DNA of 64,000 bases. It comes from Chelativorans intermedius (GTDB lineage Bacteria; Pseudomonadota; Alphaproteobacteria; Rhizobiales; Rhizobiaceae). How positions within the stretch are numbered: the first letter of the stretch is position 1; every line of letters begins with the position of its first letter. The stretch spans positions 62,001 through 126,000 of the forward strand of contig NZ_JAODNW010000015.1 in the NCBI RefSeq assembly GCF_025398255.1. Reading direction: 5' to 3'. Both the position numbers and the translations under genes were made by a program. The notes under the pieces are model-generated. The model worked only from the letters and a program-made list of their open reading frames with translations, did not search any database and was not told the origin of the DNA. This document shows positions 45,855 to 49,073 of the stretch, one piece after another.

Positions 45855-48800
45855 TCAGAACAGGTTGAGCTGCTGCGCTCTTCGCTGCCGCCCGGCCGCC
45901 GTGCTGGCGGTCGTCAGGGTGGCGGGGATGGCGTCGAGAAAGGGGGACGGCGGCAGTGCGCGCACCGCGCCGCGCCAGAAGCGCCGGCCGGCGCGGGTGA
46001 GAAACAGCCGGTCCTTCGCCCGCGTCATGGCCACATAGAGGAGGCGGCGCTCCTCCGCCTGCGCGCCTGCATCCATCTCTTCCGGCGCGCCCCATGAGAA
46101 CGGCACGATCCCCGCCTCCATGCCGATCACGAAGACGGCGCAAAATTCGAGCCCCTTGGCGGCGTGCATGGTCATCAGCGACACGCGGTCGGCACGCGGG
46201 TCGTGGAAATCGGCCTCGGTCGAGAGCGCAACCGCCTCCGCCAGGCGGGCCATGTCGCCAGCCACGTCCGGGGAAGCGGCAAGTGCGGCAAGCCAGCCCC
46301 GCGCCTCGGCCAGAGCCGCCGCGTCGGTCTCTCCGGCGGCGCGTGCCGCCTCGGCGGCTGCCGCAAGACGCGACGGCAGATCCGTGCCGGGCGCGGCTTC
46401 CGCGCCTTCGGCGAGCGCGCGCATGAGCGCGGCAACACCCGCGTGGCCGGTCAGCGGCGCCGGGGTGCTTTTCCTGAAGGGGATGCCGGCGCGGTCGAAC
46501 GCCTCGCGCAGGGCGCCCGCCTGCGCGTCGGTGCGGTAGAGCACGGCAAAATCGGCAAAGCCCAGCGGTGCCGCCCCCTTTCCGCCACGCCGGGCGCCGT
46601 GGGCGGCCAGCATGTCGTGCCCGCCCAGCATTTCCTCGATGGTGGCGGCGACGAAGGCCGCCTCGGCTGCCTCGTCCGCGGCGGTGTGAACGACGATGGG
46701 GGCTGCCATCGCACGCGTGATGCCCTCGGCCTCGGCGCCGACGAGGCGGGCGGCGGCCGTGGCGATGGTGCCGGTGGAGCGGTAATTGTGCCTGAGCCGC
46801 GCGGTGCGGGCGGCAGGAAAGTCGCGCATGAAACGGGCAAAGCAGCCGGCATCCGCGCCCCGGAAACCATAGATCGCCTGGTTCGGATCGCCGATCACGC
46901 ACAGATTGCCCTGCGGCCCGGCAAGCAGCTGCAGGAGGCGATATTGCTGCTCGTCCACGTCCTGGAACTCGTCGGCCAGGATGTGGCTGAAGCGCTCCCG
47001 CCACAGCGCGGCGATCCCCTCGTCCTGCTCCAGAAGCGCCACCGGCAGGGCCACCAGGTCGTCGAAGTCCACCCAGTTTCCCGCACGCCCCAGGCGGTCG
47101 AGCACGGCGCGGGCCTCGGCGGCCTCGCCCTCCTCCGGCACTCCGGTGCGTTTCGATAGGGAGACGGCCTTCAGGAGGCGGCCCGCCCGACGCTCGCTTG
47201 TCGACATGGCGGCGGCAAGCGCTGCCATGCGCTCGCCCTCGCCGGCGATGCGAAAACCTTCGGCAAGGCCGAGCGCCTGCCCATGGGCGCGCAGGATGGC
47301 AAGGCCCAGCGTGTGAAAGCTGTGCACCGCCACGTGCCGGGCCGCGTCCGGCATCAGCGCGGCGAGGCGCGCGCGAAGCTCCTCCGTCGCCTTGCGCGTG
47401 AAGGTGACGGCAAGGCACGAGGCGGCCGCAACGCCACGCTCCAGCACCAGATGCGCGATGCGGCGGGTGAGCATGCGCGTCTTGCCCGAACCGGGCCCGG
47501 CAATCACCATCAGCGCCCCGTCCACCATGGCGGCGGCCGCGGCCTGATCGGCGTCGAGGGCGGAAAGCACGCCCGTCCGTGCAGACGCGGCGGGGGCGGC
47601 GGGGGCAGGATCCTCCCCCGTCCCGGCGTCGGCGGGCGGGGCCGCCTGCGGCCGTTGCGCCCGCTTGCGCCGGCGCAGCGGGGCGTCAAACAGCAGATCG
47701 CCCCTGGTGAGGCGGTCGATCTCCCCTTCCTCGAACAGCCGGATCACGCCATACTCGCCATCATAACCCGCCTGGCGGATGACCCTGCCCGCGCGCAGCC
47801 GCTCCACCGCCTCGCCAAGCAGGCTGTCGGCGCGGCCGATGTCCTCGACCGGCACCTCTTCCAGAATGGAAAGCTCCGCACCGAGCGCGGCGGTAACGCG
47901 GTCGTAGGCGTGGCGCACGGTCTTGGAGGCGACGCCGCTGCCCAGGATTTCCGACAGCATTTCGGGCAGCGGCACCAGGCTTGCCACGGCGCCGGCCGTC
48001 GGCGGCGGCACCGCCTCCTGCCGGTCGGCCAGCTTTTCCACGCGGTGCGCCACGCCCACCGTCACGCGGCCGCCGCACACGGGGCAGCGCCCGTCGAGCG
48101 CCAGTGTCTCCTTCGGCTCCAGCCGCACCCCGCAGGCCCGGTGCCCGTCCATGTGGTACTTCCCTTCCTCGGGGAAGAACTCCACCGTGCCCGCATAGCC
48201 CTCTCCCGTCTCCAGCGCCCGGCGGATGGCGAAATAGTCGGGCTCACAGGAAAAGCGGGTCGCCTCGCGGCCGAGCTTGCCCGGCGAGTGCGCATCGGAA
48301 TTGGAGGTCAGCCGGTAGCGGTCGAGGGAGGAGACGCGCCAGTTCATCTCCGGGTCGGAGGAAAGCCCCGTCTCCACGGCGAAGATGTGGGATGCCAGGT
48401 CGCCGTAACATTCCTCGATGGAATCGAAACCGGACTGGGAGCCGAGAGCGGCGAACCATGGCGTCCAGATATGCGCCGGCACCAGATAGGCATGGGGGCC
48501 CGAATCCAGCGCGATCTCCAGCAGGTCGCGCGAATCGAGCCCCAGGATCGGCCGGCCGTCGGAGGCGATGTTGCCGATGCGCGCCAGGCTGGCGGCCAGC
48601 CGGTCGACGGTGTCGAGGTCCGGCGCATAGATGAGGTGGTGGACCTTCCGCGTCTTCTCGCCCTTCTTGTAGATGGTCGAGATTTCCGTGGACAGCATGA
48701 AGCGCACCGGCCTGCGGCAGGCGGGCGGCAGCGTCTTTTCGATCTGTGCCTCGATCTCCCGCCTCAGGCGGAAGAGCCCGCCGCCATCGGGCACCAGCTT

Positions 48801-48962
48801 TTCCCTGATCTCGGCAAGCCAGGCAGGGTGCACGCAGTCTCCGGTGCCCACCACGGCAATGCCCTTCAGCGCCGCCCACCAGGCAAGGTGTTCGAGATCG
48901 AGATCCCGGCTGGTGGCACGGGAATATTTCGAGTGAACGTGCAGATCGGCGTGAAAGGGCAT
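45855..48962 (-). CDS. PHP/EndoQ-like nuclease fused to UvrD-family helicase
   Basis: A 1035-residue two-part protein. Residues 1-260 are a PHP metallophosphoesterase domain (HADLHVHSKYSRAT, His8/His10; STEISTIYKKG; NSDAHSPGKLG). Residues about 270-310 form a zinc ribbon (Cys277, Cys293, Cys296) with CPVCGGRVTVGVAHRVEKLA, as in COG1379/endonuclease Q, which cuts DNA 5' to deaminated bases. After a Pro/Ala-rich linker (about 430-465) comes a superfamily 1 helicase: Walker A with Lys494 in AGPGSGKT, ILADEFQDVDEQQY, GDPNQAIYGFRGAD, and VSLMTMHAAKGLEF. The last five residues are QLNLF, a beta-clamp-binding motif. Function is inferred; domain assignment is firm. Confidence 0.88.
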   Translation of the reverse strand: MPFHADLHVHSKYSRATSRDLDLEHLAWWAALKGIAVVGTGDCVHPAWLAEIREKLVPDGGGLFRLRREIEAQIEKTLPPACRRPVRFMLSTEISTIYKKGEKTRKVHHLIYAPDLDTVDRLAASLARIGNIASDGRPILGLDSRDLLEIALDSGPHAYLVPAHIWTPWFAALGSQSGFDSIEECYGDLASHIFAVETGLSSDPEMNWRVSSLDRYRLTSNSDAHSPGKLGREATRFSCEPDYFAIRRALETGEGYAGTVEFFPEEGKYHMDGHRACGVRLEPKETLALDGRCPVCGGRVTVGVAHRVEKLADRQEAVPPPTAGAVASLVPLPEMLSEILGSGVASKTVRHAYDRVTAALGAELSILEEVPVEDIGRADSLLGEAVERLRAGRVIRQAGYDGEYGVIRLFEEGEIDRLTRGDLLFDAPLRRRKRAQRPQAAPPADAGTGEDPAPAAPAASARTGVLSALDADQAAAAAMVDGALMVIAGPGSGKTRMLTRRIAHLVLERGVAAASCLAVTFTRKATEELRARLAALMPDAARHVAVHSFHTLGLAILRAHGQALGLAEGFRIAGEGERMAALAAAMSTSERRAGRLLKAVSLSKRTGVPEEGEAAEARAVLDRLGRAGNWVDFDDLVALPVALLEQDEGIAALWRERFSHILADEFQDVDEQQYRLLQLLAGPQGNLCVIGDPNQAIYGFRGADAGCFARFMRDFPAARTARLRHNYRSTGTIATAAARLVGAEAEGITRAMAAPIVVHTAADEAAEAAFVAATIEEMLGGHDMLAAHGARRGGKGAAPLGFADFAVLYRTDAQAGALREAFDRAGIPFRKSTPAPLTGHAGVAALMRALAEGAEAAPGTDLPSRLAAAAEAARAAGETDAAALAEARGWLAALAASPDVAGDMARLAEAVALSTEADFHDPRADRVSLMTMHAAKGLEFCAVFVIGMEAGIVPFSWGAPEEMDAGAQAEERRLLYVAMTRAKDRLFLTRAGRRFWRGAVRALPPSPFLDAIPATLTTASTAAGRQRRAQQLNLF

Positions 48963-49073
48963 GGAGAAAGCAATAGCAGCCGCCGGCGGCCCGTCAAAAG
49001 CCTCGGACCGGACAGGCCCTGCTTTCCACAGCCCGGACGCCCGGCGCGGCGCCGGGCCCGCGGATGCCCCGGC

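Follow-up and report, generated by a model that had tools for sequence, protein, structure and literature searches.

Architecture of the EndoQ-helicase fusion

The window analysed here is a stretch of 64,000 nucleotides from Chelativorans intermedius (assembly GCF_025398255.1, contig NZ_JAODNW010000015.1, positions 62,001-126,000 of the forward strand). It carries a gene whose product starts with an EndoQ module, continues through a disordered linker into a UvrD/PcrA-type helicase and ends in QLNLF. The features, in window coordinates, are:

45855..48962, minus strand: EndoQ-UvrD fusion gene (open reading frame, ATG start, 1035 aa)
47718..48962, minus strand: EndoQ module, residues 1-415, comprising PHP nuclease, Zn ribbon and C-terminal part (PfuEndoQ match, Foldseek)
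48075..48143, minus strand: Zn ribbon H274-x2-C277 ... C293-x2-C296, HCCC where the archaeal ribbon has CCCC
47577..47705, minus strand: flexible linker, residues 420-462 (pLDDT below 50 at 422-452; conservation lowest here)
45903..47576, minus strand: SF1A UvrD/PcrA-type helicase, residues 463-1020 (Pfam; PDB 1pjr, 4c2u)
46191..46472, minus strand: shortened 2B-equivalent region, residues 831-924 (comparison with PcrA)
45858..45872, minus strand: terminal clamp-binding-type motif QLNLF, residues 1031-1035 (conserved tail)

The AlphaFold2 model of the fusion has a mean pLDDT of 87.1, with values below 50 at residues 422-452, 782-796 and 1023-1035, and its pTM of 0.58 gives no fixed arrangement. 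Compared with congener L031, dN/dS is 0.094 for the EndoQ part and 0.194 for the helicase part; by this measure both halves are evidently under purifying selection. The open reading frame is confirmed as a real EndoQ-helicase fusion with a clamp-type tail, and the three elements that the initial annotation had named (EndoQ-type N-terminus, fused helicase and clamp-type tail) are borne out and conserved across phyla.

The N-terminus matches PfuEndoQ (5zb8) with an E-value of 5.8e-53 over the stretches 4-66 and 102-412, but its TIGR00375 score of 167.7 bits lies under the curated cut-off of 326.6 bits. No match above the cut-off was obtained in the sampled groups, while 2 of 14 control genomes exceeded it. 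In a Foldseek comparison, the model aligns with 5zb8 at a TM score of 0.88 (target length, 418 columns), which corresponds to a full-length EndoQ fold. The module thus resembles archaeal EndoQ (PfuEndoQ 5zb8 and 7k30; TkoEndoQ) in fold, metal ligands, lesion pocket and Zn ribbon position, but differs from it in sequence (about 31% identity) and in the HCCC ribbon.

Metal ligands D6, H10, E93, H108, H164, D223 and H225 are present in all 69 distinct complete fusions, and H8 in 66 of them, with Q in the other three (all Alphaproteobacteria), so the PHP site is conserved across orthologues; the corresponding PHP ligands of PfuEndoQ are D6, H8, H10, E76, H84, H139, D192 and H194. E197, G199, S201 and S222 are likewise invariant (69/69). 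The lesion-pocket residues H164, G199 and S201, which correspond to PfuEndoQ H139, G169 and S171, reported to exclude T and A (PMC8307549), occur in all 69 fusions and in all 21 stand-alone EndoQ rows aligned, and these pocket residues suggest base specificity for deaminated lesions. EndoQ has been described with a C-terminal Zn ribbon of four cysteines including CPxCG (PMC4357722). The CPxCG is present in the window protein; C277, C293 and C296 are found in 69/69 fusions and H274 in 68/69 (C in one), and all 21 stand-alone bacterial rows likewise have H as the first ribbon ligand.

It could be argued that the main target of the nuclease is by now a different lesion or structure, such as AP sites, oxidised pyrimidines or flaps, with deaminated bases being incidental. 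PfuEndoQ is reported to cut AP sites and oxidised pyrimidines too (PMC8307549), the low identity to PfuEndoQ leaves room for such a shift, and uracil-DNA glycosylase (UDG) is encoded in every genome tested (see below). However, the invariance of the pocket residues in fusions and stand-alone rows alike speaks against it, and we consider this reading unlikely.

A divergent helicase and a clamp-type tail

The C-terminal part was recognized by Pfam as UvrD-helicase (PF00580, E = 4.1e-61) and UvrD_C (1.6e-29), and the fusion model aligns with UvrD chains at TM scores of up to 0.76. Motifs I, II, III, IV, V and VI are all present. Invariant in the 69 fusions are G491, G493, K494 and T495 of Walker A, D664, E665, Q667 and D668, Q695, Y698 and R701, Y727 and R728, T931, H933 and K936-E939, and R973, V977 and R981; G489 and T980 are kept in 68, G699 in 45, and position Y976 is Y or F. 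The helicase shares core motifs and 1A/2A architecture with UvrD/PcrA/Rep, but the 2B-equivalent stretch is only about 92 residues long, versus about 175 in PcrA. The motif II-V distance is 267 in the window protein, with a median of 269 in fusions (79 of 81 measured) against 328 in ordinary helicases (19 of 20 measured). Consequently, the description as a "full" superfamily 1 helicase in the initial annotation stands for the motifs but not for 2B, which is about half its usual length. The 1B region is shortened in some fusion homologues as well: the Walker A to motif II distance is 107 at the lowest, versus at least 185 in ordinary helicases, and a short homologue of 936 aa (L037, identical to L090) also lacks much of what follows window residue 575.

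These reductions bear on the order of events. UvrD-family monomers are reported to translocate 3'-5' on single-stranded DNA (PMC13238157), and the same polarity is expected for the fusion motor as a family property. It is conceivable, if rather unlikely, that the motor acts first, as a clamp-tethered 3'-5' translocase that scans single-stranded DNA (for instance at stalled forks) and feeds the EndoQ pocket, leaving unwinding after the nick to others. The reduced 2B, the truncated 936-aa homologue, the short Walker A to motif II distance and the translocation by UvrD-family monomers would suit such a scanner. On the other hand, a single-strand cut at a fork would be expected to break the fork, and a nick would offer the motor a direct loading site.

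After motif VI, a median of about 57 residues remains in fusions versus about 166 in ordinary helicases. Unlike UvrD/PcrA, the fusion has no housekeeping C-terminal extension and carries the clamp motif in its place. In the housekeeping enzymes, that extension is an RNA-polymerase contact. QLNLF lies at the extreme C-terminus, which is of low confidence in the AlphaFold2 model. Q1031 is found in 69/69 and L1034 in 68/69 fusions. Of 81 complete fusions, 76 have the pattern QxxL[FLIMV] within their last 14 residues (QxxLF in 49), the other five carrying close variants, whereas shuffling of the last 40 residues (200 rounds) yields a mean of 1.6 and a maximum of 7, and 1 of 20 ordinary UvrD-type helicases, all from the order, family or genus of the window, has it. 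Under a stricter pattern (Q[LMF]xL[FLIMV], last 12 residues), 8 of 71 fusions lack it, with duplicates still included in this count. Together with its presence in 7/7 further fusions from the order, the tail is clearly kept in orthologues, as would be expected from the initial annotation.

The beta-clamp consensus is given as QL[S/D]LF or QxxLF (PMC12309361), and the tail probably holds the fusion on the beta clamp. Archaeal EndoQ similarly ends in a sliding-clamp motif, there a PIP box bound to PCNA (PMC4858679), but the motif of the fusion is of the bacterial beta-clamp type and the helicase, about 560 residues long, separates it from the nuclease. That bacterial EndoQ homologues can end in a beta-clamp motif was already noted in 2016 (PMC4858679).

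Distribution and origin

Bacterial EndoQ has been described as confined to a few genera, e.g., Bacillus and Desulfovibrio (PMC4357722, PMC8438529), and our literature search found no description of an EndoQ-helicase fusion. We identified 88 complete fusions, no pair of which shares more than 80% of 8-mers; they span about ten phyla, with isolate genomes among the sources. The distribution is patchy: 5 fusion-length matches were detected among 385 genomes of the class to which the window belongs, and its genus has 2 intact copies among 16 genomes and 2 decayed copies in congeners. The fusion of genome G007 is broken by frame changes (decay or sequencing error).

In the helicase tree, 28 of 29 sampled fusions fall into one clade (support 100/99), and 23 of 24 controls lie on the other side. 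The fusions form an old bacterial family, and their helicases a clade apart from UvrD/PcrA/Rep. A single origin of the fusion is likely: the helicase trees fit it, with the exception of L187, while in the EndoQ tree the deepest fusions (L184-186, L188, L190 and L203) lie unresolved beside tailed stand-alones. The sparse record within the genus might suggest that the two parts were joined recently or by chance, or that the join is an assembly artefact, with no joint function; considering the diversity of the complete fusions, the common clade of their helicase halves and the purifying selection on both halves, we regard this as extremely improbable.

In four Elusimicrobiota, a helicase gene of the fusion-helicase clade (24 rows, 97/95) comes after the EndoQ gene in the same orientation. 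The two genes overlap by 4 nt in three of the four operons, whose EndoQ ends in QLALL and whose helicase ends in QLSLF in two; neither operon EndoQ L252 nor operon helicase L254 has a clear tail. Because both operon and fusion link them, a dedicated helicase appears to be tied to EndoQ. Stand-alone bacterial EndoQ (Bacillus pumilus type) shares the EndoQ module but has no helicase. Among closed stand-alone EndoQs below 50% identity, 12 of 13 end in a clamp-like motif as judged by eye, and the distant L251 has no clear tail. Those of at least 50% identity (n = 14) have neither a tail nor a helicase in the flank retrieved, and EndoQ sites are intact in all 11 checked, so helicase and tail are not indispensable.

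Genomic context and a proposed repair route

In the window, polA lies 361 bp downstream of the fusion gene, and from this adjacency the initial annotation had proposed a hand-over to DNA polymerase I. However, polA was near none of 92 other loci (85 plus 7 in the order), a count weakened by short contigs, as a closed frame together with 3 kb or more of downstream sequence is available for only 55 of 80 loci, and in three congeners it is absent from about 6 kb or more downstream. The adjacency is therefore peculiar to the window among the loci surveyed, and the coupling was rejected, while the fusion, the EndoQ family and the tail were retained from the earlier interpretation. Its term "single-polypeptide pathway" also goes too far, as the repair would still depend on a polymerase, a flap nuclease and a ligase.

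Apart from the helicase, no operon partner was found to be conserved: clusters of neighbour ORFs, which were chosen by length and not by annotation, are common to at most 7 loci, and the largest (7 loci) consists of Micromonosporaceae-type records. Among 133 neighbour ORFs, no Pfam family occurs in more than three. A search of 80 upstream regions with five known LexA-type patterns gave one match and no clear excess over shuffles, lending no support to SOS control.

An anti-phage nuclease-helicase acting on deaminated, uracil-containing or modified phage DNA was also considered. The patchy distribution and the decay in congeners would fit it, a defence role has been suggested for Bacillus EndoQ (PMC8307549), and the helicase half matches GajB models in PADLOC. 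Nevertheless, these matches look like the generic UvrD similarity shared with Gabija GajB and defence UvrD-like helicases; the EndoQ half matches no PADLOC model, no PADLOC family recurs among the 133 neighbour ORFs (34 loci), and no defence context was found there. Searches of plasmids and phages gave no match for the EndoQ part at the limits used, and 0 of 87 viral-contig candidates were confirmed, on which grounds spread by plasmid, phage or virus was rejected too. As a conserved clamp motif would also be unexpected in a defence nuclease, we find this explanation very unlikely.

UDG was found in 33/33 genomes tested (30 with an intact fusion, one with the broken G007 copy and two with stand-alone EndoQ), and replacement of UDG was rejected. 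A separate PcrA-type frame of 665-856 aa is present in 13/13 genomes checked. Because UDG and a PcrA-type helicase co-occur with it, the fusion would represent an added route that supplements UDG. EndoV showed no pattern: it was found in 23 of 53 genomes, and in the genus in none of 16, whether they carry the fusion or not.

The reading that we favour, with reasonable though limited confidence, is that the protein is a nuclease tethered to the clamp, which would cut 5' of a deaminated base or AP site and unwind the damaged strand in front of a polymerase. The QLNLF tail would dock the protein on the beta clamp. By homology, the EndoQ module would flip out an AP site or a deaminated base (U, hypoxanthine or xanthine) and cut the strand on its 5' side so that a 3'-OH remains; such a nick has been shown for PfuEndoQ, and the EndoQ enzymes of B. 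pumilus and M. acetivorans are reported to make it as well. Judging from polarities, the flexibly linked 3'-5' motor would engage the undamaged strand at the nick, move away from the nick and peel off the lesion-bearing 5' end as a flap along the direction of polymerase extension, and the halved 2B may permit unwinding by a monomer, by analogy with Rep without 2B. A clamp-bound polymerase would then fill, a flap nuclease trim and a ligase seal; repair of the archaeal EndoQ nick is described with helicase, FEN1, polymerase and ligase (PMC8438529).

Whether the family as a whole is an old, widespread and overlooked clamp-docked excision-repair enzyme seems to us evenly balanced. Such an enzyme would combine a glycosylase-free 5' nick with helicase-assisted strand displacement from its own nick, form a long-patch route parallel to UDG, supply the missing downstream step of EndoQ and use a monomer motor freed of 2B autoinhibition. 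In the literature found, completion of the EndoQ nick is a proposal without demonstration; the fusion in about ten phyla and the overlapping Elusimicrobiota operon connect EndoQ with the clamp and with a helicase of its own, and this link predicts steps downstream of the nick. Fusion-bearing isolates are available (e.g., Micromonospora, Nocardiopsis and Plastoroseomonas), and natural forms without the helicase, or with the tail alone, provide built-in controls.

The EndoQ-UvrD fusion protein and its conserved residues

One frame of the window encodes an EndoQ module, a linker, a UvrD/PcrA-type helicase and a C-terminal tail of the beta-clamp-binding type:

45855..48962, minus strand: EndoQ-UvrD fusion ORF, 1035 residues, C-terminal end QLNLF

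The solved archaeal form, PfuEndoQ, aligns with residues 4-66 and 102-412 (E 5.8e-53), and the UvrD/PcrA-type helicase occupies residues ~460 to 1020. An AlphaFold2 model with 48 fusions as input has a mean pLDDT of 87.1 (low confidence at 422-452, 782-796 and 1023-1035) and a pTM of 0.58, which leaves the mutual position of the EndoQ and helicase halves unfixed; Foldseek matched both halves to PDB structures (TM 0.88 for EndoQ, up to 0.76 for UvrD). Directly 5' of the start codon we noticed by eye a candidate promoter of the gene's own (48970-48997, minus strand; TTGACG, 16 nt, TATTGC), which is absent from the consensus-scan listing.

By the numbering of the window-PfuEndoQ alignment, D6, H10, E93, H108, H164, E197, G199, S201, S222, D223 and H225 are invariant in 69/69 distinct complete fusions, and the Zn ribbon reads H274-C277-C293-C296, with H274 replaced by C in one. 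The metal ligand H8 is Q in 3 of the 69, all from Alphaproteobacteria (L046 = L034, L035, L049), with the other ligands retained. The PfuEndoQ counterparts of H164, G199 and S201 are said, in the accessible part of PMC8307549, to exclude T and A. In the helicase motifs, too, most residues are invariant across the 69, and comparison of the window gene with that of a congener (81% identical) gave dN/dS values of 0.094 in the EndoQ part and 0.194 in the helicase part.

The stretch replacing subdomain 2B comprises ~92 residues in the window helicase versus ~175 in PcrA, and ~57 residues follow motif VI in fusions versus ~166 in controls (medians; 79/81 fusions and 19/20 controls measured). Because deletion of 2B activates the Rep monomer (extracts of PMC13238157), the fusion helicase with its reduced 2B may be an active monomer. 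A separate PcrA-type frame was present besides the fusion in 13/13 genomes examined for it. The fusions L090, L055 and L077 (936-984 aa in total; Elusimicrobiota, Gastranaerophilales and an alphaproteobacterial MAG) contain a shorter helicase and keep the tail.

The clamp-type tail in fused, stand-alone and operon forms

We assembled 81 complete fusions: a set of 69 (the window protein, 5 from sampled genomes and 65 from the 80 best loci, after removal of 2 duplicates) and 12 more from further sampled genomes. QxxL[FLIMV] lies within the last 14 residues of 76 of them, versus a mean of 1.6 and a maximum of 7 when the last 40 residues were shuffled; the other five end in QLSLL plus 12 residues, QMSFDF, QLSFF (two) and QLSFL. 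The narrower QxxLF, which with QL[S/D]LF is given as the beta-clamp consensus in the available text of PMC12309361, is found in 49/81. Only one of 20 ordinary UvrD-type helicases (19 genomes from the window's order, family and genus) carries the tail motif. It is present in 7/7 further fusions from the window's order, and no pair among the 88 complete fusions has >80% of 8-mers in common.

In the EndoQ tree (71 rows), the starred clade of 50 comprises 39 fused and 11 tail-less stand-alone rows (two of the latter trimmed at 440), and the stand-alone state there requires nine changes, at least six of them forced by well-supported branches. These 11 proteins have intact sites and stop close to the domain boundary (residue 415 onwards). 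Together with L256, L257 and L260, which lie outside the tree, they make up the closed stand-alone EndoQs of at least 50% identity whose fetched flank lacks a helicase, 14/14 of which are without the tail. Below 50% identity, a clamp-like end was recognized by eye in 12 of 13 closed forms, including the loosely fitting QMRMF of L150; L251 is without one. A stand-alone EndoQ of Devosia nitrariae (L042, 8001-9335), ~81% identical to the window module, tail-less and with no helicase within ~8 kb, offers a natural single-domain comparison for the window fusion. A separate and more distant stand-alone PHP family was seen in Planctomycetota (L198-L202; 31-35% identical, DLHSHSG); its members show no clear clamp tail, nor any helicase within the retrieved sequence.

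In the helicase tree (53 rows, omitting one non-fusion match, L247), 28/29 fusion helicases form a 100/99 clade and 23/24 controls lie on the other side, with L187 and one long-branched control falling between. Four Elusimicrobiota genomes (L252-L255) encode EndoQ and helicase as adjacent same-strand genes. In L253, L254 and L255 (L253 and L255 being close relatives) EndoQ has the C-terminal end QLALL, and its stop shares 4 nt with a GTG or TTG start of the helicase gene. QLSLF closes the helicase frame of L253 and is followed by one more residue in that of L255; the L254 helicase is without it. In L252, an ATG lies 20 nt downstream of an EndoQ with no clear tail, and the helicase runs past the end of the retrieved sequence. 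Operon helicases join the clade of the fusions (24 rows, 97/95), together with all sampled fusions except L187, and 18/18 controls lie apart, L252 covering only 16% of columns in that tree. That the operon preceded the fusion is the natural reading, short of proof.

In nine Gastranaerophilales-type genomes (L055, L058, L061, L070, L071, L072, L075, L080, L096), an in-frame A9 lies where EndoQ meets the helicase, and none of these frames has a second run of that length or longer; in three genomes with a frame break at this point (L084, L258, L261) the run is ten A. It is possible, given the run length at which slippage sets in, that transcriptional slippage here yields EndoQ alone plus the fusion. 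From codon usage alone, a Val-Lys-Lys run of this kind is expected with a frequency of ~0.23, and the genomes that have it are related.

Proposed mechanism and genomic context

The homology, conservation and linkage of EndoQ and helicase are evident, and the fusion probably acts by nicking and then unwinding, each biochemical step of which we infer. The EndoQ nick would leave a 3'-OH and a 5' end bearing the lesion. Running 3'-5' along the undamaged strand, the motor would travel away from the nick in the direction of primer extension, lifting the lesion strand, and the tail would tether the protein to the clamp, the platform where polymerases load. According to the accessible parts of the sources, the archaeal EndoQ nick is followed by helicase, FEN1, polymerase and ligase (PMC8438529), PCNA-held strand displacement has been proposed for EndoQ, and beta-clamp motifs in bacterial EndoQ have been noted (PMC4858679). 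EndoQ as a family was known before, as were its link to PCNA and the clamp motifs in bacteria. We found no description of an EndoQ-helicase fusion in the available portions of open-licence PMC literature on EndoQ. Domain databases probably contain such architectures.

The initial annotation had proposed hand-over to DNA polymerase I from the adjacency of polA, 361 bp downstream. This adjacency was seen in the window genome only (polA found at 0/85 and 0/7 other loci, some with short flanks), and the link is not supported; three congeners have upstream genes in common with the window locus and no polA within ~6 kb or more downstream. Replacement of UDG by the fusion is not supported either, UDG being present in 33/33 genomes tested. 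No defence context was found among neighbour genes of fusion loci, and searches of plasmids and phages with the EndoQ part gave no match.

Distribution among bacteria

Scanning genome contigs with the EndoQ part gave at least 590 matching stretches (589 confirmed), and the best 80 were used; these are the most similar loci, and their make-up therefore gives no prevalence. Complete fusions are encoded by 65, 7 run off contig ends and 8 end early, with helicase sequence broken or in another frame in 3 of the 8 (L071, L084, L089) and no helicase found in the fetched flank of the other 5. By record title or tree label, complete fusions occur in Pseudomonadota, Binatota, Acidobacteriota, Actinomycetota, Melainabacteria, Elusimicrobiota, Planctomycetota, Verrucomicrobiota, Myxococcota and Poribacteria. 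Many sources are MAGs; among the isolates are Plastoroseomonas, Polyangium and many Actinomycetota.

Table. TIGR00375 matches in sampled genomes and fusion-length frames (open frame >=900 aa, counted from listings); the centre genome of each sample, picked because it has the gene, is counted in
Window's order: match in 8/347 genomes; fusion-length 8
Window's class: 7/385; 5
Actinomycetota: 7/246; 4
Planctomycetota: 24/199; 10
Phylum of Gastranaerophilales: 41/146; 30
Elusimicrobiota: 31/119; 12, plus one cut by contig end

Within the window's genus, 3/16 genomes have a TIGR00375 match, the gene being intact in G000 and G003 and frame-broken in G007 (L032, 7897-10921), where it occupies the same site as in the window and the frame changes fall within the EndoQ part. 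A fourth genome of the genus, G001 (L033, 7978-8400), retains a same-site remnant after a large internal deletion, the end of which is still QLNLF.
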